Assembly (NCBI RefSeq): GCF_002412335.2
Contig: NZ_NXIB02000079.1
Span: 1-35,290 of the forward strand
Reading direction: 5' to 3'
Source: Tychonema bourrellyi FEM_GT703
GTDB taxonomy: Bacteria > Cyanobacteriota > Cyanobacteriia > Cyanobacteriales > Microcoleaceae
DNA length: 35,290 bases
Positions 5,863 through 27,317 of this stretch are shown one piece after another; within the stretch, counting starts at the first letter, position 1, and the number at the start of each line of letters is the position of its first letter. Below the pieces are notes generated by a model. The model was not told the DNA's origin and ran no database searches. It saw only the letters and a list, made by a program, of their open reading frames with translations. The position numbers were made by a program, and so were the translations under genes.

Positions 5863-6062
5863 CCACAAGAATTATGGGAGATGTCTGTTTGATGCTATCC
5901 AATCTACCTGAGAATAGCTATTCTGGTGCGAATGTCAACAAATTTAAACTCGCTCGATCGACAATCGGTCAATTCTTCAGCAAAATGGGACTCTCATATC
6001 GTTTCCGGTAGCATCGGAACGATCGAGTCGAGTGGACGGGGAGGGTAGGCACGGGGGCACAC

Positions 6063-6254
6063 AGGTGTCAACTTAAGCCTGAAAGCCTTGATAAATCTCG
6101 TTTTTACCTAAGTCCAGATCCCCCTAAATCCCCCTTAAGAAGGGGGACTTTGAGAAGACTCTTGTCCCCCCCTTCTTAAGGGGGGCTAGGGGGGGATCTA
6201 GGTTTAATATTCAAACAGCAGTCTCTGACTGGGTTTAAGCTTAAGTTGACACCT
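6063..6254. mobile_element. MITE-like element with perfect 16-bp terminal inverted repeats
   Basis: AGGTGTCAACTTAAGC at 6063-6078 is the exact reverse complement of 6239-6254, giving a 192-bp non-coding element. Inside is a second large hairpin (about 6116-6202) built from CCCCCTTAAG-type arms. The 12-mer GCACGGGGGCAC occurs just outside both ends (6049-6060 and 6257-6268), offset by two bases each side. This could be a target duplication or a split host repeat. A diverged piece of the right end occurs at 19139-19199. No transposase is present, so any movement would depend on one elsewhere. Confidence 0.75.
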
Positions 6255-6304
6255 ATGCACGGGGGCACTACCCCTACAAAATCATCGTTTTCTTGAGAAT
6301 GAAA

Positions 6305-8886: not shown

Positions 8887-9264
8887 ATGGATATTGAATC
8901 AACTAAAGTAACTCCCGAAGAAATTGCTAAGTTTCGCACTGAATTGGCTAGTTATCCCAGTGCGATCGCGGCTTTGGATGTCATCGAAGAAGAATGTGAG
9001 GGGTATCTGGAAGATGCTATCCCATTGTTACTAATGCGAGAAACCAGCACTGAAGCTGATAGATCGCTCGGTGATTTATTGGAAAAATGCCGTAAGTTTA
9101 TCTGTCAGGAGGAAGTTAGAGAAGCTCTGGAATCAGGAATGATTGCACCCGCAATAGAGCCTATTTCTATGGGGGCTGGTATTCCTCCCGGTGTAGCAAC
9201 GGCGGTCGGTATTTGTGCTTTTAAATTGGGAATGAAGAAGGTTTGTGCTGATTGTACTGACTAA
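8887..9264 (+). CDS. Conserved-looking 125-aa protein of unknown function convergent with a CHAT gene
   Basis: I do not recognise a named domain. The start at 8887 (MDIESTKVTPEEIAKFRTEL) is preferred over the open frame from 8701, whose extra 62 residues look like translated intergenic sequence. The protein is acidic and helical for about 85 residues (LDVIEEECEGYLEDAIPLLL, then LEKCRKFICQEEVREALESG). A Gly/Ala-rich weakly hydrophobic stretch (IPPGVATAVGICAFKLGM) and a Cys-containing tail (KKVCADCTD) follow. Six Cys in 125 residues is notable. Its TAA stop (9262-9264) overlaps the TAG of the convergent TPR-CHAT gene (9261-9263). Being a substrate or partner of that protein is only a hypothesis. 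Confidence 0.75.
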   Translation: MDIESTKVTPEEIAKFRTELASYPSAIAALDVIEEECEGYLEDAIPLLLMRETSTEADRSLGDLLEKCRKFICQEEVREALESGMIAPAIEPISMGAGIPPGVATAVGICAFKLGMKKVCADCTD

Positions 9265-12200
9265 ATCCCTGTAGCTATAAAACCTGCCCAGTAGTAGGGA
9301 TTAGCAAATGGATGGGGTTGGCGTTGTCTGATTTTTTCCAATGATTCTTGATATATTTTGCGCTGTCCTGGTCGCAGTGGAGCAAGATATTTGTCTATTT
9401 GCGGTTGATATTGCTCCAGAAATTTGTCTAATTTTTCAATGGTTAAATTCTGCAACCAATCTTGAGCTTCTTTTAAGGCAACTGCTACGGAAATGTTGAG
9501 ATTAACACTGAATAAAATCTCATAAAATTTAATCATCAAGAATGAAGTTGATAAATCATTGACTGTCCACAAACTACTGACAACGCTTGGACTTCCGGCA
9601 AACAGAAAACCACTGGGTAAACCGATATATTCATCGCTGATTGAGTTGATATCTATTAATCCGGTTTCACAAGCGGAAAGGGTGACAAGGCGACATTGAT
9701 TGAGACGAAGTTCAAATATTTCGCCTAATGTTAAGGGTTCTTTATTAGCTAATAATAAGGCAGATTCAAGGGGATTATTGGGTTTAAATTCTCCATGACA
9801 GGAGAAGTGATGGCAGTGGTTATTTGAGGTTTTTAAGTGAGAGATAATGGCGTTTTTAGTGGCATTATCTTTGGCAATAATTTGGCTTTCAGTATCAGTA
9901 AAGAAGTTTGAGACGATATTAACTTCTAGGTCGGTGTAAAGTAAGTCTTTGGTTGGGTTTTGGATGGCAAACAGTTTATGAAAGTCGGAATGGTGGAAAC
10001 TTTGGGCGATCCGTAATAGTTGGCAACTGGGAGCGTATTGTACGCCATTGGGGAATAAATCGTGTAAATCTTGAGCATTTGCTCCTGCCCCAAATTTCAA
10101 AACGTGGGAGTTAGAGATGGGCAAGGCATGAAGGGGTAAAATATGTAAAAACCAATGGGGAATAATAATTAAGCGTTTACAAGTATCGGGAATGAGGGCA
10201 AGAATATCATTAATATGTAGGATATCGGCAAAGGTTTGGATGAGGCTAGAAAGTTGATTAATCCATTCTTTTTTGCCTGTTTCGGAGTAGTAAAGCTGTA
10301 GATAATTCCTGATTGCTGCATCAAATAATTGTTTTCTCTTGTCTTCTGAAGATTGCCAAACTTTAATATCTCCATTAGCAGATACCACAAAGGCTAATAT
10401 TTTCTCGCCTGTGATATACCACTGTAAAAGACAAGTTTCAGCATCGGTTAAAGCCTGAATGTCTGTAAATGGGATCGGATCAACTTTTTGAGTGAGGCTA
10501 AAAAGAGGATCAATAGGTTTAATTTCTCTCTCAATAAAGATATCTAATTCTTGTTGATATTCTTTCAGATAACTGTGATCTTGAACGTAGGGGGTTAGGT
10601 TGTCACTACGCATCAAATTTTGATTAATGCTTTGATGTTGTAAGCGAATTTGTTCATTAACGGCTCTTTGTTTTAATTCATTTAATTTATCAATAATTTC
10701 TTGACTAACGCCTTGAGGTTGTAGATTTTTCTGGGTCATTAATTCTACAAGGTTACGCCCTTTACTGCGTTCAATATATTCTAAAGCTTTCTCAGTTTGA
10801 TTAAGGTTAAGATATGCTTTCACAATGCGATTAAAAACACCAATAGCATTGGATAAAACTTCTTGACGACTGTGGGGGTTTAATGCTTCTAAGCGAGCAT
10901 TTTCGACGGCTTCAATAGCAAGATTATAAGCTTTTGTTGCAGGTTGCCATTGTTTTTCACTGTAGTGTAAATTCGCTAAATTACGGGCAGTTTGTAAGCA
11001 ATTGAGGGGATCATTTTCTTTAGTGTAGATTGCCAAAGCATTGCTATAAGAAGCGATCGCTTTTTCCAGATTATCAGCTTTATCGCCTCTGATTCTTTGT
11101 TGGTAAGCAGCAGCGAGATTGTTTTGTGTCATTGCCCAATCTTGGGGAAATGCTTTAAATTTTCTTACTTTCAACGCTTCTATATATAATGCGATCGCCA
11201 TTTCTAAATTATCAGCTTTATCGCCTCTGATTCTGTATAAGTAAGCGTTAGCGAGATCATTCTGTGTCATTGCCCAATCTTGGGGAAATGCTTTAAATTT
11301 TCTTACTTTCAACGCTTCTATATATAATGCGATCGCCATTTCTAAATTATCAGCTTTATCGCCTCTGATTCTGTATAAGTAAGCGTTAGCGAGATCATTC
11401 TGTGTCATTGCCCAATCTTGGGGAAATGCTTTAAATTTTCTTACTTTCAACGCTTCTGTATATAATGTGATCGCCATTTCTAAATTATCAGCTTTATCGC
11501 CTCTGATTCTGTTGCAGTAAGCAGTAGCTAGATTATTCTGCATTTCAGCCCAATCTTGAGGAAATGCGTCAAAAGTATAAACTTTCAGCGCTTCTTCGTA
11601 GCAAGTAATTGCCTGATCGCTATTCTCCGCTTTATCGCCTCTGATTCTGTTACGGTAAGCTATAGCAATATTATTCTGTGTTTCTGCCCAATGAACAGGA
11701 AAAGCATCAAAAGTTCTCACTTTCAAGGCATTATGATAACAAGTGATCGCCATTTCTAAATTATCAGCTTTATCGCCTCTGATTCTTTCACTGTAAACAG
11801 TCCCTAGATTATTTTGTGTTTCTGCCCAATGAACAGGAAAATTGTCAAAAGTTCTGATTTTCAATGCTTCTTGGTAGTAAGTGATCGCATTTTCTAAATT
11901 ATCAGCTTTATTGCCTCTTATTCTGTATAAGTAAGCAGAAGCGAGATTATTCTGTGTCATTGCCCAATCTTCTGGAAAACACTCAAAAGTATAAACCTTC
12001 AATGCTTTACAGTAAGATGAGATTGCTTGTTCAAGATTCTTTGTTTTATTGCCTCTAATTCTGTCAGAGTAAGCAACAGCGAGATTATTCTGTATCATTG
12101 CCCAATCTTCTGGAAAAGCATCAAAAGTATAAACCTTCAATGCTTCTTGGTAGTAAGTGATCGCAATTTCTAAATTATCAGCTTTATTGCCTCTGATTCT

Positions 12201-12821
12201 GTCAGAGTAAACAGAAGCGAGATTATTCTGTGTCATTGCCCAATATTCTGGAAAACACTCAAAAGTAAAAATAATTAGCGCAATTTTATAGCCAGTAATG
12301 GCAAGTTCTTTATTTATACCAATATCACCAAGTGGAAATTGTTGAATAAGATTACTGATGTTGACAATAACGCCCGCTATAGATGTAGCTTCTTCTGTAT
12401 TAACTGATGATATTCTATTTCTTGCCCACTCATCTAAAACTTGGATCAAATTTTCATCTAATTTATCAAGATTTTGCGCCCAGAAAGGATAAATCACTTC
12501 AGGGTTATCATTTTCTGAGACCTTTTGTAATGTCTCCATCAAGAAATTTACATAGTCTTGAGGGGTGCTTTTGCTTTCGGTTGGGTTGTTATCCAATAAC
12601 CCTAATGCTTGCGCTAACTGTCGCGCTATACTCATCAGCGATCTCACCTCATTTTCCTTTCCTGCTTCCTCTAATTGTTGCGCTACTACTATCATTTCCT
12701 CTCTCAATCCCTGATCTAATAATTCCTCATTTTCCTGTAAAATTCGGGGTTCATCGCCTTTATTACAGGATAATAATTGATTAATCAGGTTTAGGTAAGC
12801 TTGGGTGCGTTGGTCATTCAT
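9261..12821 (-). CDS. TPR-repeat CHAT domain protein (caspase-like protease fold)
   Basis: CHAT proteins are clan CD (caspase/separase-like) cysteine protease relatives, usually controlled by attached sensor repeats. The 1186-aa product has a helical N-terminal region (about residues 1-80) and a linker. From Trp194 to about 607 there are nine tandem 46-residue TPR-type units, each starting like WAMTQNNLASAY and containing RIRGDKADNLEMAI. Further TPR helices run to about 710, then a coiled-coil segment (about 710-790), and the C-terminal CHAT domain (about 850-1186). The catalytic dyad is present: His1009 in FSCHGEF and Cys1051 in LSACETGL, followed by LPSGFLFAGSPSVVSSLWTV. The protein is therefore likely active. 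Its stop overlaps that of the convergent 125-aa gene. The sensed signal and substrate are unknown. Confidence 0.93.
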   Translation of the reverse strand: MNDQRTQAYLNLINQLLSCNKGDEPRILQENEELLDQGLREEMIVVAQQLEEAGKENEVRSLMSIARQLAQALGLLDNNPTESKSTPQDYVNFLMETLQKVSENDNPEVIYPFWAQNLDKLDENLIQVLDEWARNRISSVNTEEATSIAGVIVNISNLIQQFPLGDIGINKELAITGYKIALIIFTFECFPEYWAMTQNNLASVYSDRIRGNKADNLEIAITYYQEALKVYTFDAFPEDWAMIQNNLAVAYSDRIRGNKTKNLEQAISSYCKALKVYTFECFPEDWAMTQNNLASAYLYRIRGNKADNLENAITYYQEALKIRTFDNFPVHWAETQNNLGTVYSERIRGDKADNLEMAITCYHNALKVRTFDAFPVHWAETQNNIAIAYRNRIRGDKAENSDQAITCYEEALKVYTFDAFPQDWAEMQNNLATAYCNRIRGDKADNLEMAITLYTEALKVRKFKAFPQDWAMTQNDLANAYLYRIRGDKADNLEMAIALYIEALKVRKFKAFPQDWAMTQNDLANAYLYRIRGDKADNLEMAIALYIEALKVRKFKAFPQDWAMTQNNLAAAYQQRIRGDKADNLEKAIASYSNALAIYTKENDPLNCLQTARNLANLHYSEKQWQPATKAYNLAIEAVENARLEALNPHSRQEVLSNAIGVFNRIVKAYLNLNQTEKALEYIERSKGRNLVELMTQKNLQPQGVSQEIIDKLNELKQRAVNEQIRLQHQSINQNLMRSDNLTPYVQDHSYLKEYQQELDIFIEREIKPIDPLFSLTQKVDPIPFTDIQALTDAETCLLQWYITGEKILAFVVSANGDIKVWQSSEDKRKQLFDAAIRNYLQLYYSETGKKEWINQLSSLIQTFADILHINDILALIPDTCKRLIIIPHWFLHILPLHALPISNSHVLKFGAGANAQDLHDLFPNGVQYAPSCQLLRIAQSFHHSDFHKLFAIQNPTKDLLYTDLEVNIVSNFFTDTESQIIAKDNATKNAIISHLKTSNNHCHHFSCHGEFKPNNPLESALLLANKEPLTLGEIFELRLNQCRLVTLSACETGLIDINSISDEYIGLPSGFLFAGSPSVVSSLWTVNDLSTSFLMIKFYEILFSVNLNISVAVALKEAQDWLQNLTIEKLDKFLEQYQPQIDKYLAPLRPGQRKIYQESLEKIRQRQPHPFANPYYWAGFIATGI
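11001..12242 (-). repeat. Nine 138-bp in-frame tandem repeats in the TPR-CHAT gene
   Basis: The TPR region is built of nine 138-bp units (46 codons), starting with the Trp codon at 12242 and spaced exactly 138 bases. The segments 11130-11267 and 11268-11405 are identical base for base, so the seventh and eighth protein units are also identical. The next copy (from 11406) differs at only a few sites. This indicates recent unit duplication or gene conversion. Confidence 0.93.
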
Positions 12822-17355: not shown

Positions 17356-17763
17356 ATGAGTCAAACAGCAATTGCAGTCAAACGAGTTTTCATTTGCGGT
17401 TCTGCCCTGCGAGGTCAACCGGACAACAGCAATCTCGGAGATGCCAAGTTTATCAGAGAAGCGAAAACCCGTCCGATTTACCGTTTGCATTCGGCAGAAA
17501 ATGGCTGGCATCCGGCAATTTATGAAGTGGTCACTTCCGGCGTATCAATTCCGGGGGAAGTGTACGAATTAACCTCGGATCAATTTGAACAGCTTGCAGG
17601 GGGAGAACCGCCGCATATGTATCCATCGGATGTGGTTTTGGATGATGGGGAAGTGTTGACCGCTTTCTTTTACCCGCAGGAATTGGTGGAGAAATACCAA
17701 TGGGAGGATATTTCCGATCGAGGTGGGTGGGCGGCTTATAAAGCCAGTGCAGGGCCAAATTAA
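17356..17763 (+). CDS. Gamma-glutamylcyclotransferase-fold protein like the allophanate hydrolase C-terminal domain
   Basis: A 135-aa protein (MSQTAIAVKRVFICGSALRG start; an ATG one codon earlier at 17353 is equally possible). It resembles the C-terminal domain of allophanate hydrolase, which has a gamma-glutamylcyclotransferase-like fold. Features are VFICGSALRGQPDNSNLGDA, RPIYRLHSAENGWHPAIYEV, SIPGEVYELTSDQFEQLAGG, EPPHMYPSDVVLDDGEVLTA and GGWAAYKAS. Stand-alone versions occur beside urea, allantoin or allophanate genes, matching the neighbours here. The amidase part of allophanate hydrolase is absent. Its exact reaction is unknown. A candidate NtcA promoter lies upstream; a 76-bp tandem array begins six bases after the stop. 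Confidence 0.8.
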   Translation: MSQTAIAVKRVFICGSALRGQPDNSNLGDAKFIREAKTRPIYRLHSAENGWHPAIYEVVTSGVSIPGEVYELTSDQFEQLAGGEPPHMYPSDVVLDDGEVLTAFFYPQELVEKYQWEDISDRGGWAAYKASAGPN

Positions 17764-17768
17764 TCGTT

Positions 17769-18177
17769 GTGGAACAGGCATCTTGCCTGTTCTTTTCTGG
17801 AAAATGCGGGCGAGACGCCCACCCCACAATCAAATTCAGTAGCTGTGGAACAGGCATCTTGCCTGTTCTTTTCTGGAAAATGCGGGCGAGACGCCCACCC
17901 CACAATCAAATTCAGTGGTTGTGGAACAGGCATCTTGCCTGTTCTTTTCTGGAGAATGCGGGCGAGACGCCCACACCACAATCAAATTCAGTAGCTGTGG
18001 AACAGGCATCTTGCCTGTTCTTTTCTGGAGAATGCGGGCGGGACGCCCACACCACAATCAAGTTGAGTGGTTGTGGAACAGGCATCTTGCCTGTTCTTTT
18101 CTGGAGAATGCGGGCGAGACGCCCACACCACAATCAAATTCAGTAGCTGTGGAACAGGCATCTTGCCTGTTCTTGAA
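17769..18177. repeat. Tandem array of five 76-bp units plus a partial sixth
   Basis: Units start at 17769, 17845, 17921, 17997, 18073 and 18149 with an exact 76-base period; the last is cut after about 29 bases. Each unit holds two hairpins: AACAGGCA/TGCCTGTT with a three-base loop, and GGGCG/CGCCC with a three-base loop. Units differ at a few positions (for example aaaatg or agaatg, cacccca or cacacca). Unit length is not a multiple of three, yet all frames are open over much of it, producing spurious ORFs on both strands. The array fills the gap between two convergent genes. Confidence 0.96.
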
Positions 18178-18181
18178 AATA

Positions 18182-19087
18182 CTACGCCCTGTGATATTCA
18201 TGCCAGTGTCGGGCAATATCAATGCGGCGGCATACCCACACCCGTTCGTGCTGCTGCACATAGTCCAAAAAACGCCCCAAAGCCGCAGCCCGCCCCGGCC
18301 TCCCCGCCAAACGGCAGTGTAGCCCCACACTCATCATCTTGGGCGCTGTCTCGCCCTCGGCGTAGAGCACATCGAAAGTATCCCGCAGGTAAGCAAAAAA
18401 CTGATCCCCGGAATTAAACCCCTGACTGGTGGCAAACCTCATGTCGTTGTTGTCGAGGGTGTAGGGAATCACCAGGTGGGGTCTGGCGCACTCGTACACC
18501 CAGTAAGGCAGGTCATCCGCGTAGCTGTCGGCATCGTAAAGAAAACCGCCTTCCTCGACTACTAGCTTGCGAGTGTGGGGGCTCGTGCGCCCGGTATACC
18601 AGCCGAGGGGACGGCTGCCGGTCACTTGCGTATGGAGGGCGATCGCCCTTTGCAAATGCTCCCGTTCTGCTTCTTCTCCAAAATACTTATAATCGATCCA
18701 GCGGTAGCCGTGGCTGGCAATTTCCCAATCGGCTGCTAACATCGCTGCTACTGCTTCTGGATGCCTCTCTAATGCCATTGCTACCCCATAAACAGTCACC
18801 TGTATTCCCCTCGAAGTAAACATCCGGTGCAGCCGCCAAAAACCCGCCCGACTGCCGTATTCGTAACAGGATTCCATGTTCATGTGGCGCAGTCCCGACA
18901 GGGGGACGGCCCCGACAATTTCTGACAGAAATGTTTCTGAAGACGCATCTCCGTGCAGGATACAGGTTTCTCCGCCTTCTTCGTAGTTGATCACAAATTG
19001 CACGGCTATGCGCGCTCGATTGGGCCATTTAGGATCGGGCGGATTTTGCCCGTAACCGATTAATTCTCGCGGATAATTTGCTGACAT
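18182..19087 (-). CDS. puuE: Allantoinase PuuE-type polysaccharide deacetylase-fold protein
   Basis: Hydrolyses allantoin to allantoate in purine degradation; PuuE allantoinases use the NodB polysaccharide-deacetylase fold rather than the classical amidohydrolase fold. The 301-aa product carries the subfamily signatures: YPRELIGYGQNPPDPKWP at the N-terminus, AVQFVINYEEGGE, LHGDASSETFLSEIVG, YEYGSRAGFWRLHRMF, EIASHGYRWIDY, and LGWYTGRTSPHTRKL. Length is normal. The product would feed the M20 allantoate hydrolase encoded 1 kb away. The stop codon is a few bases beyond the 76-bp array. No uricase or other earlier pathway gene is in the window. Confidence 0.92.
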   Translation of the reverse strand: MSANYPRELIGYGQNPPDPKWPNRARIAVQFVINYEEGGETCILHGDASSETFLSEIVGAVPLSGLRHMNMESCYEYGSRAGFWRLHRMFTSRGIQVTVYGVAMALERHPEAVAAMLAADWEIASHGYRWIDYKYFGEEAEREHLQRAIALHTQVTGSRPLGWYTGRTSPHTRKLVVEEGGFLYDADSYADDLPYWVYECARPHLVIPYTLDNNDMRFATSQGFNSGDQFFAYLRDTFDVLYAEGETAPKMMSVGLHCRLAGRPGRAAALGRFLDYVQQHERVWVCRRIDIARHWHEYHRA

Positions 19088-19138
19088 ATATAGCCTTTCT
19101 CAAGTAAATGAGTGATCATAGGCATTGGGCGTTGGTGG

Positions 19139-19199
19139 TTCTAGACTTAATCATCAAACAGCACTCTTTGAATGGATTTTACGTTAAGTTGACACTAAT
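19139..19199. mobile_element. Diverged right-end fragment of the 6063-6254 element
   Basis: The segment reads tcaaacagcactctttgaat and then gttaagttgacac, aligning with 6207-6257 at most positions. No matching left end is seen nearby, so it looks like a decayed fragment. It lies in the gene-free interval 19088-19412 together with a terminator. Confidence 0.6.
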
Positions 19200-19250
19200 G
19201 GGCAGTGCCGTGTCCTCAGTTCCTTCGACTAGAAGCTAATTTCTAAACAC

Positions 19251-22821: not shown

Positions 22822-22842
22822 AATCCCAAATCTCAAATCCCA
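22822..22842. repeat. Heptamer repeat running into the cysS start codon
   Basis: AATCCCA, AATCTCA and AATCCCA are three consecutive heptamers; the last A is the first base of the cysS ATG. No Shine-Dalgarno sequence is visible in this leader. Confidence 0.75.
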
Positions 22843-24407
22843 TGCCCCTAACGCTTTACAACAGCTTGACCCGTCGCGAATCACCTTTTGACCCGATCGA
22901 ACCAAAAAAGGTGCGGATGTACTGCTGCGGCGTTACGGTGTACGATTACTGCCACGTCGGCCACGCCCGCGCATACATTGTATGGGACATGGTGCGCCGC
23001 TATCTGATGTGGCGCGGATACGATGTGCGCTACGTCCAGAATTTTACCGATATTGATGACAAAATTCTCGATCGCGCCCGCGAAACAAATTCCACAATGG
23101 AAGCCGTAGCCCAATGCTTCATCGACGAATATTTTGCAGATATGGACAAGCTGAATATTCTCAGGGCCGATGAATATCCCCGTGCAACACATACAATAGA
23201 CGGCATAAAACGGCTGATTCACGAGTTAGAAAATAAAGGCTATGCCTATGCGTCTAGCGGCGACGTTTACTACAATGTTAGACAGTTTACCGATTACGGA
23301 AAACTTTCCGGCCGCAAGTTGGAAGAAATGCAGGCTGGGGCTAGCGGTAGATTGGAAACCGCAGAAATAGAAGCTCAGAAAAAGCAAGATCCGTCTGATT
23401 TTGCCCTGTGGAAAAGTGCTAAACCTGGTGAACCTGCATGGGATTCATCTTGGGGAAAAGGCCGCCCCGGATGGCACATTGAATGTTCGGCGATGGTGCG
23501 CGATTGCTTAGGCGAAACTATTGACATTCACTGTGGTGGTTCCGATTTAACTTTCCCGCACCATGAGAACGAAATTGCTCAATCTGAAGCCGCGACGGGG
23601 AAGTCTCTTGCTAATTATTGGATGCACAATGCTTTTGTGACTGTCAATGGCAAAAAGATGTCTAAGTCGTTGCACAATTTTATTACAATTCGCGATTTGT
23701 TGAAGGGGAATTGGTCAGGTGATTTGGAATCTAACCCCCCCGCAGAGGGCGGGCACGGGGGCACCGCCCCTACGCAGGAGGGGAGTCAGAATCACAGCGA
23801 CAATGCGAAAGCGGTGGAACCGATGGCGGTGAGGCTGTTTGTGTTGATGGCGCAGTACCGCAGTCAAATTGATTTTACCTCTGAGGCGATCGCCAGTGCG
23901 AAAAATGGCTGGCAAACTCTGAAGGAAGGCTTACTTTTTGGCACTCAACACGGTTCTAAACTCGGTTGGGATATTGAGAAAATCGATTATTTGACTGAAC
24001 AAGATAGCACATTAGTGCAGCAATTTCAAGCCGCGATGGATGATGATTTTAATACGCCTGGTGCTTTGACTGTGCTGTTTGAATTGGCCAAGGAATTGGG
24101 CAAGGAAGGTAATGTTTTGGTGCATCAAGGGAAAACTGAAACTTCGCCCCAATTGTTGCAGCAAAAATGGGTGACTTTGGTGAATTTGGCGGGGGTTTTG
24201 GGTTTGGAAGTTCAGCCGGAAGCTGAGACGGAAATCTCGGTTGGTGGTTTGACGGATGGGGAAATTGAGGGTTTGATTCAGCAGCGGAAAGATGCCCGGA
24301 AAGCGAAGAATTTTGCTGAGGGCGATCGCATTCGCAATGAACTTAAGGATAATGGTGTTACTCTGATAGACCAAAAAGATGGTATCACTATCTGGCATCG
24401 AGGTTGA
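22842..24407 (+). CDS. cysS: Cysteinyl-tRNA synthetase
   Basis: Charges tRNA-Cys with cysteine; essential class I synthetase. Motifs are intact: MYCCGVTVYDYCHVGH with the HIGH-like HVGH at residues 38-41, HIECSAM and HCGGSDLTFPHHENE zinc/substrate region, and KMSKS at 272-276. At 521 aa it is longer than the common 460-490. The excess lies at about residues 290-325, after RDLLK and before AVEPMAVRLF. There, a dispersed hairpin repeat is translated in frame as GGHGGTAPTQEG and neighbouring residues. The insertion falls just after the KMSKS loop, at the border of the anticodon-binding helical domain, so it is probably a tolerated surface loop. The start codon overlaps a heptamer repeat. Confidence 0.96.
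   Translation: MPLTLYNSLTRRESPFDPIEPKKVRMYCCGVTVYDYCHVGHARAYIVWDMVRRYLMWRGYDVRYVQNFTDIDDKILDRARETNSTMEAVAQCFIDEYFADMDKLNILRADEYPRATHTIDGIKRLIHELENKGYAYASSGDVYYNVRQFTDYGKLSGRKLEEMQAGASGRLETAEIEAQKKQDPSDFALWKSAKPGEPAWDSSWGKGRPGWHIECSAMVRDCLGETIDIHCGGSDLTFPHHENEIAQSEAATGKSLANYWMHNAFVTVNGKKMSKSLHNFITIRDLLKGNWSGDLESNPPAEGGHGGTAPTQEGSQNHSDNAKAVEPMAVRLFVLMAQYRSQIDFTSEAIASAKNGWQTLKEGLLFGTQHGSKLGWDIEKIDYLTEQDSTLVQQFQAAMDDDFNTPGALTVLFELAKELGKEGNVLVHQGKTETSPQLLQQKWVTLVNLAGVLGLEVQPEAETEISVGGLTDGEIEGLIQQRKDARKAKNFAEGDRIRNELKDNGVTLIDQKDGITIWHRG
23747..23769. repeat. Dispersed hairpin repeat inside the cysS coding sequence
   Basis: GGGCGG and CCGCCC flank gcacgggggca. The sequence GCACGGGGGCAC with a following CCCCTAC also occurs at 6257-6275 in intergenic DNA. 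Here it is translated in frame within cysS. Confidence 0.8.
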
Positions 24408-27021: not shown

Positions 27022-27209
27022 AACAGGCAGGATGCCTGTTCCACAATATACATATCCTAAAAAGCCAGTCTTGAACAGGCAGGATGCCTGTTCCACAATA
27101 GACATATCCTAAAAAGCCAGTCTTGAACAGGCAGGATGCCTGTTCCACAATAAATATATCCTAAAAAGCCAGTCTTGAACAGGCAGGATGCCTGTTCCAC
27201 AATAAATAT
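27022..27209. repeat. Four 52-bp tandem units with the AACAGGCA palindrome
   Basis: AACAGGCAGGATGCCTGTT occurs at 27022, 27074, 27126 and 27178, exactly 52 bases apart, each followed by ccacaata and then catatcctaaaaagccagtc-like spacer. The palindrome is the same family as at 5844 and in the 76-bp array at 17769, but the spacer differs. Confidence 0.95.
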
Positions 27210-27213
27210 GGTC

Positions 27214-27317
27214 GAGGTCTAATGTGGCATGGGCGTCCCGATGTCTAATGTGGCACGGGCGTCCCGATGTCTAATGTGGCACGGGCGTCCCGATGTCTTA
27301 TGTGGCACGGGCGTCCC
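27214..27317. repeat. Four 26-bp tandem units
   Basis: Units (consensus start GATGTCTAATGTGGCACGGG, ending cgtccc) begin at 27214, 27240, 27266 and 27292. The 26-base period is exactly half that of the preceding array. The rest of the interval to 27572 shows no gene I can defend. Confidence 0.93.

Follow-up and report, generated by a model that had tools for sequence, protein, structure and literature searches.

That short palindromes can lie inside bacterial genes is already known, both for REPs and for the palindromic elements of Rickettsia. As described in the parts of the survey by Di Nocera and others (2013, PMC3733652) drawn on here, GTAG-REPs have the following characteristics: (i) a terminal GTAG; (ii) a stem of 6-13 bp next to this tag; and (iii) a loop that is either short or, in the GTAG-15 type of cyanobacteria, 9-15 bases long. 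They occur in cyanobacteria and also within genes, including those for tRNA synthetases of X. oryzae, E. litoralis and S. alaskensis; the recB gene of two Xanthomonas species was hit by them at approximately the same site, and their GTAG termini often supply stop codons to neighbouring genes (PMC3733652). The classic in-gene case is that of the Rickettsia palindromic elements, which, in the portions of the literature used here, are described as lying in frame in unrelated metabolic genes and as measuring around 150 bases, RPE-4 and RPE-6 being shorter CGTC repeats (PMC10969869, PMC3733652). Microcoleus is absent from the main text of the GTAG-REP survey (PMC3733652). Among the titles and abstract beginnings of the open-licence PMC literature, no report was found of the site described below or of in-gene repeats of Microcoleus. 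To judge by its title, a study by Elhai from 2008 reportedly deals with small dispersed repeats of Nostoc and very small mobile repeats of cyanobacteria.

The site lies in cysS, the gene for cysteine--tRNA ligase (CysRS), at 22842-24407 on the forward strand of the window, that is, of the whole stretch of 35,290 nucleotides from Tychonema bourrellyi FEM_GT703 that was analysed. The open reading frame (ORF) has 521 aa. Its product is a CysRS both by score (560 bits against TIGR00435, with a curated cut-off of 340) and by its KMSKS motif, of which K272, M273, S274, K275 and S276 are invariant in 46 aligned sequences. A second cysS, named as a refutation by an earlier, sequence-only reading of the window, was rejected, since the genome (G000; 5.08 Mb in 271 contigs, 92.5% complete) holds a single match.

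Between RDLLK and AVEPMAVRLF there is a variable linker of 34 residues (289-322, from K288 to A323; 23706-23807, forward strand). It comes after the helix downstream of KMSKS (272-276) and before AVEPMAVRLF; the sequence-only reading had placed it near the KMSKS loop; the linker begins 13 residues past the motif. The same reading counted roughly 30 extra residues. There are indeed 34 between the two anchors, but 15 residues are already present in the plain linker of the genus, which is free of repeat DNA; the gain due to the repeat and its flanks is about 19. The GGGCGG/CCGCCC hairpin that had been pointed out is located at 23745-23773 (forward strand), where 29 bases of linker DNA, GAGGGCGGGCACGGGGGCACCGCCCCTAC, belong to a dispersed hairpin repeat, here named B: the stem GGGCGG/CCGCCC encloses an 11-base loop, and the repeat ends in CTAC, the opposite strand beginning with GTAGGGGCGG. 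Around it are the remnants of the two arms of a second palindrome, A (CCCCCAGCCCCCCTTNNTAAGGGGGG). The left one is a run of C (23735-23741, forward strand), with flanks as in the A form of a related genome (L002, G025) and in other A-bearing cysS genes; the right one is a run of G (23780-23783, forward strand), recognised by comparison with L002 and L003.

As judged from its tag, stem, loop, dispersal and the genes for REP-associated tyrosine transposases (RAYTs) in relatives, B is a GTAG-tagged REP, matched to the GTAG-REPs by description and not to any named family consensus in the parts of PMC3733652 drawn on. It has the terminal GTAG, a stem of 6 bp (GGGCGG/CCGCCC) next to the tag and a loop of 11 bases, which falls in the GTAG-15 range. 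The 21-base core of B has 78 copies in the 5.08 Mb of G000 with up to 3 mismatches, 36 of them exact, while the reversed pattern has none, so B is not a product of chance and that candidate explanation was rejected. All 78 listed copies keep the CTAC end (GTAG on the other strand), though mismatches were allowed anywhere in the pattern. Some form close inverted pairs (contigs C65, C192 and C227, and three on C111), and in three relatives (G010, G021 and G014) a RAYT gene is flanked by two to six copies of B. In its tag, short stem, large GTAG-15-like loop, dispersal, close inverted pairs, repeat-flanked transposase gene and copies inside genes, B is like the GTAG-REPs and RAYTs of the survey as far as it is used here (Di Nocera and others 2013, PMC3733652). 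Unlike what those parts of the survey describe, a single gene site is here reused genus-wide, two repeat families are nested, units grow in tandem and one repeat is read in three frames (PMC3733652); it is the genus-wide reuse of the same loops and the nesting of two families that are notable.

Compared by description, B resembles the Rickettsia palindromic elements in being a short palindrome in frame within unrelated genes, but it measures 29 bases, is read in five of the six frames and belongs to a cyanobacterium and not to obligate intracellular hosts, as those elements are characterised in the portions used (PMC10969869, PMC3733652); the host is no Rickettsia, since the genus includes Oscillatoria nigro-viridis PCC 7112. 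The close inverted pairs recall REPINs, described in the cited part of PMC3116915 as REP doublets that go with RAYTs, but the copy in cysS is single, unlike a REPIN (PMC3116915).

Both repeats are general to the genus of the window: each was found in 29 of 29 genomes, with 5-134 copies for B and 3-41 for A, controls being 0 in each genome for either. The sequence-only reading assigned the cysS repeat to the same type as one in intergenic DNA at 6257, and this is borne out by a match of 90% over 21 bases with the copy at 6257-6277 (forward strand), a variant CACTACCCC. That variant has 29 genome copies, none of which sits in frame within an ORF of 200 aa or longer; 17 of the 36 exact copies of B are genic, versus 0 of 29 for the variant (the copies are not independent). 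As an aside, a B copy at 6048-6268 is split by an element of 196 bases (6061-6256) with inverted ends ACAGGTGTCAACTTAAGC / GCTTAAGTTGACACCTAT, bordered on either side by the 12 bases GCACGGGGGCAC, which resembles an insertion with target duplication; a piece related to this element (78%) is found at 19134-19200. The window also contains tandem arrays at 27022-27316 (units of 52 and 26 bases), 17681-18250 (76 bases) and 10896-12299 (138 bases, inside a long ORF at 9261-12821).

Within genes, B is depleted but common: 28 of 78 copies fall in frame within ORFs no shorter than 200 aa (27 ORFs, cysS included, the next longest frame being 102 aa), against some 75-77% of all bases in such ORFs. The count was 28 both for the 65 copies with identical contexts collapsed and for all 78, and it includes four copies within 25 codons of a contig end (L033, L050, L163, L200) and others in ORFs truncated where the retrieved sequence stops. 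The claim that a hairpin repeat has entered the coding sequence of cysS in frame and adds a protein segment is supported, and the search for other in-frame copies proposed by the same reading brought to light 27 more in long ORFs. Of 20 B-bearing ORFs scanned, 18 match a protein family at E 0.001; the families include NAD+ synthase, lipoyl synthase, RsmE, magnesium chelatase subunit D, LL-diaminopimelate aminotransferase and RimI, among others. In the aminotransferase and in NAD+ synthase, several model matches stop at the first residue before the repeat. Other genes of G000 carry B on the opposite strand, read as VGAVPPCP and RGGAPVP; over all genomes five of the six frames are seen, four of them in G000, and the sixth has a stop. 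B between A arms also occurs outside genes (L032, L045, L049, L051, L059), with differing spacers. In two similar histidine kinases on contig 188 of G000 (L172 and L173), a tandem FEGRHGGI segment with B occupies the same position ahead of the receiver domain; either it was carried along by duplication or both kinases were hit.

The cysS linker was compared across the genus, of which 29 genomes were sampled and 24 had anchors on both sides of the linker. Among them, G011 is identified as Oscillatoria nigro-viridis PCC 7112 by its second contig, whose initial 6000 bases are a 100% match to plasmid NC_019730; we take this strain to be counted as Microcoleus in current genome taxonomy. Three conditions of the linker can be distinguished: (i) the plain linker of 45 bases or 15 residues, in 4 of 24 genes (L017, L018, L020, L021); (ii) A alone, in 10 of 24, either once (L005, L010, L015, L019 and that of G020) or more than once and partly shortened (L002, L008, L012, L013, L016); and (iii) B between A arms, in 10 of 24, seven with this arrangement only (L001, L003, L004, L009, L011, L014, L026) and three combining it with A repeats (L006, L007, L022). 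Across the 23 genes that are in frame, the linker ranges from 45 to 246 bases (15 to 82 residues). Of 29 loci from outside the genus, 22 have 0 bases at this place, 5 have 6 and 2 have 21; at least two of the 29 are second copies of a genome (L061 with L029, L065 with L142). Two genes, L063 (Kamptonema sp. UHCC 0994) and L141 (G055), are unusually long, with the studied linker empty and the extra sequence elsewhere in the gene. Loci with one anchor or none were left out of the count (L024, L025, L136, L145, L146, L148, L149, L150, L153), as were the duplicates L023 (of L147) and L151 (of L026). The genome search gave no cysS match in G001 and G009. Assembly gaps are the likely reason: the G001 contig that bears the downstream gene starts some 100 bases ahead of the match to this gene, and the matching pieces of G009 are divided between two contigs.

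Contigs end at the linker itself in three further assemblies (G003, G005, G021), which is what an assembly or sequencing artefact, or a low-complexity loop resembling the repeat by chance, could be suspected from. Such an explanation is scarcely credible, as repeats are present in many genomes, including G011 (6 contigs, A form) and G018 (a single contig, with an in-frame A tandem), and as B has 78 copies against 0 in the control.

The linker of cysS is one state of a hotspot and not the outcome of a single event. Alleles with and without repeats, swaps of the interior and tandem multiplication are all directly seen. G000 and the related G025 have near-identical flanks around different interiors (A[B] in the former, A units in the latter), and none of the A[B] forms examined in cysS retains A's inner stem and loop, an indication of replacement and not of plain insertion of B into A. 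Tandem units differ as well (33 bases in L008, 48 in L022), and so do the spacers between A and B. As for the proposed dating of the insertion by an alignment of relatives, two repeat families have reused the site and there is no single insertion to date.

Nevertheless, one or a few old insertions might have been followed by the spread of cysS alleles between strains through homologous recombination, insertion itself being rare; recombination of alleles could mimic repeated insertion, and near-identical flanks around different interiors, as in G000 and G025, are what it would leave. On a tree built from the conserved parts of four hotspot genes (cysS, lipA, nadE and rsmE), with the state of G003 taken from a contig starting inside the gene, the presence of B needs 4 changes by parsimony and the presence of any repeat also 4, in keeping with few insertions; for the full state, with its 11 states, 18 changes are required where 10 would be the minimum. 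Such a history is rather unlikely, as the differing A-B spacers, the three frames of B and the tandem units of 33 and 48 bases would need separate local events, and as equal turnover is found at three further loci.

The reading frame is kept (a multiple of three) in 23 of 24 genus linkers. In these genes B is read in all three forward frames, giving GGHGGTAPT in most, GHRPY in L009 and AGTGAPPL in L026, and a conserved peptide was accordingly rejected. Frame retention and the use of several frames are direct observations; together they suggest that the frame is selected and the peptide, seemingly, is not, and the sequences indicate that the conserved unit is a DNA hairpin rather than a peptide. 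The exception is G020 (L147), a single-contig genome in which the sole cysS match has a linker of 83 bases; a sequencing error, frameshifting or a fresh lesion are candidates for it. Skipping of the hairpin by the ribosome, or trimming of RNA or protein to yield a normal enzyme, would agree with the out-of-frame linker of the single-contig G020, but skipping would also relax the three-base rule. That 23 of 24 linkers obey it argues against skipping in translation, and the exception of G020 is flanked by C and G runs, which are prone to sequencing errors; this explanation is highly improbable.

As for the protein, an AlphaFold2 model of this CysRS (from 46 aligned sequences) has a mean pLDDT of 91.6. 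Among stretches of at least three residues, pLDDT falls below 50 solely in the repeat-derived part (302-314), at 302-304, 306-308 and 310-314. The best structure matches of the model are CysRS, namely 1u0b (Z 47.1, rmsd 4.3, 452 aligned) and 3tqo (Z 46.9, rmsd 1.6, 383 aligned). The modelling that the sequence-only reading had called for thus predicts a disordered loop that leaves the CysRS fold intact.

That reading regarded the repeat as domesticated. A segment serving the enzyme, for instance in tRNA contact or regulation, would agree with its place after the KMSKS module, with the match of the model to the CysRS-tRNA complex 1u0b (Z 47.1) and with the presence of some repeat in 20 of the 24 measured genes. 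Such use has very little probability: 4 of 24 genes do without a repeat, relatives do not share the same residues but differ in peptide, length and frame of B, and the loop is predicted to be disordered, all of which fits tolerance rather than use. The hairpin could also act in mRNA or DNA, by pausing or stability, its coding being incidental. The fold of the stretch does beat 199 of 200 shuffles (-33.8 versus a mean of -25.45 kcal/mol, z -2.7), but any palindrome would fold so, four genes have no hairpin and 23 of 24 linkers are in frame, and a role of this kind is quite improbable.

The same turnover is directly seen in lipA, nadE and rsmE, whose orthologues were compared throughout the genus. 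Every linker counted has a length divisible by three: 27 of 27 lipA loci, nadE in 29 of 29 genomes and 24 of 24 gap-free rsmE loci. B is present in at least 10 of the 27 lipA loops, once in the opposite orientation, and the solved lipoyl synthase 4u0o is without most of the corresponding stretch. In nadE, 7 of 29 genomes have an exact copy of B and others have decayed copies. The rsmE loops hold A, A tandems, B on the other strand and A[B], the latter with differing spacers in L274, L275 and L280. One rsmE locus (L284, in G010) has an array of A units, roughly 527 bases long, that the assembly interrupts by a run of N; stops follow this run when it is read, and the locus was excluded from the frame count. 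Loci lacking an anchor were dropped (L234 and L236 for lipA; L286, L289 and L293 for rsmE); L235 is a lipA paralogue, and L265 and L266 of nadE are one genome. Some lipA and rsmE matches show one internal stop, which may precede the true start. One orthologue query began with low-complexity sequence and drew weak repeat matches, and the top orthologues alone were used.

A mobiliser was sought among Y1 transposases, with 177 matches in 28 of the 29 genus genomes. B lies within 2.3 kb at 3 of the 67 Y1 loci examined out of these 177: six copies in G010, three in G021 and two in G014. No B was found at the first 33 loci, which are the best-scoring matches and mostly IS200-like; the three come from 34 further loci with weaker, longer matches. 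The Y1 protein is of the same 181-residue type in all three (90-96% identical) and scores 61-63 bits against the RAYT model NF047646, under its cut-off of 80, which suggests a divergent RAYT relative. The B array ends some 30-50 bases upstream of the Y1 start codon in each; in G010 the six copies lie on both sides of the gene, those behind it being inverted, and in G021 the Y1 stop codon falls within TAGGGGCGGTG, the start of an inverted B copy. With 132 and 134 copies of B, G010 and G014 exceed all other genomes among the 29; G021 has 60. This B-flanked RAYT, itself a direct observation, is the likely mobiliser of B. None of the four Y1 matches in G000 carries B, so that no B-flanked RAYT was found in that genome; in G023, at 96% completeness, there are 69 copies of B but Y1 matches are absent. 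The counts of B and Y1 over the 29 genomes correlate weakly (Spearman 0.40, p 0.03, with kinship not corrected). For A, no mobiliser was found. Other RAYT genes stand beside GTAG hairpins of their own, GTAGGTTGGG at L206 (G000, contig 217) and L362 (G006), and GTAGGGTGCG at L350 (G001) and L352 (G003); several REP-RAYT pairs thus seem to coexist in the genus. Hairpins of the GTAGGGTGCG kind also occur in the window, at 2781, 7740, 13237 and 13328.

In our reading, the linker of cysS very probably holds a GTAG-REP hairpin, B, between the arm remnants of A, in a tolerant stretch that has been repeatedly hit, exchanged and tandemly multiplied, with the frame under selection and the peptide not. 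The linker just past the KMSKS module, predicted to be disordered, would be a site tolerant of small hairpins, which would have been inserted, exchanged and multiplied there time and again within the genus. The B-flanked RAYT would move B as single-stranded DNA, and the swaps from A to A[B], as well as the A arrays, may arise by template switching or slippage between hairpins that share runs of C and G. Selection would purge most frame-breaking events and be indifferent to which frame or peptide results, so that most inserts would be neutral passengers. It is conceivable, if doubtful, that certain disordered loops in housekeeping enzymes serve as landing pads, the arms of a resident palindrome directing the repeated replacement of its interior by other palindromes and its tandem growth, with the loops continually rewritten. 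If so, protein segments would be made under the guidance of DNA structure, and not by random insertion followed by selection.

In practical terms, the three assemblies whose contigs break at the cysS linker are a warning for the annotation of such genomes. The same loops have been rewritten again and again in one genus, which is worth more than one odd insertion. To the in-gene palindromes of Rickettsia and further bacteria a cyanobacterial case is added, for which the genus itself provides a candidate transposase. Furthermore, a presumably essential enzyme offers here a natural series in which 15 to 82 linker residues derive largely from mobile repeats, and this series makes it testable whether selfish repeats supply new protein sequence.
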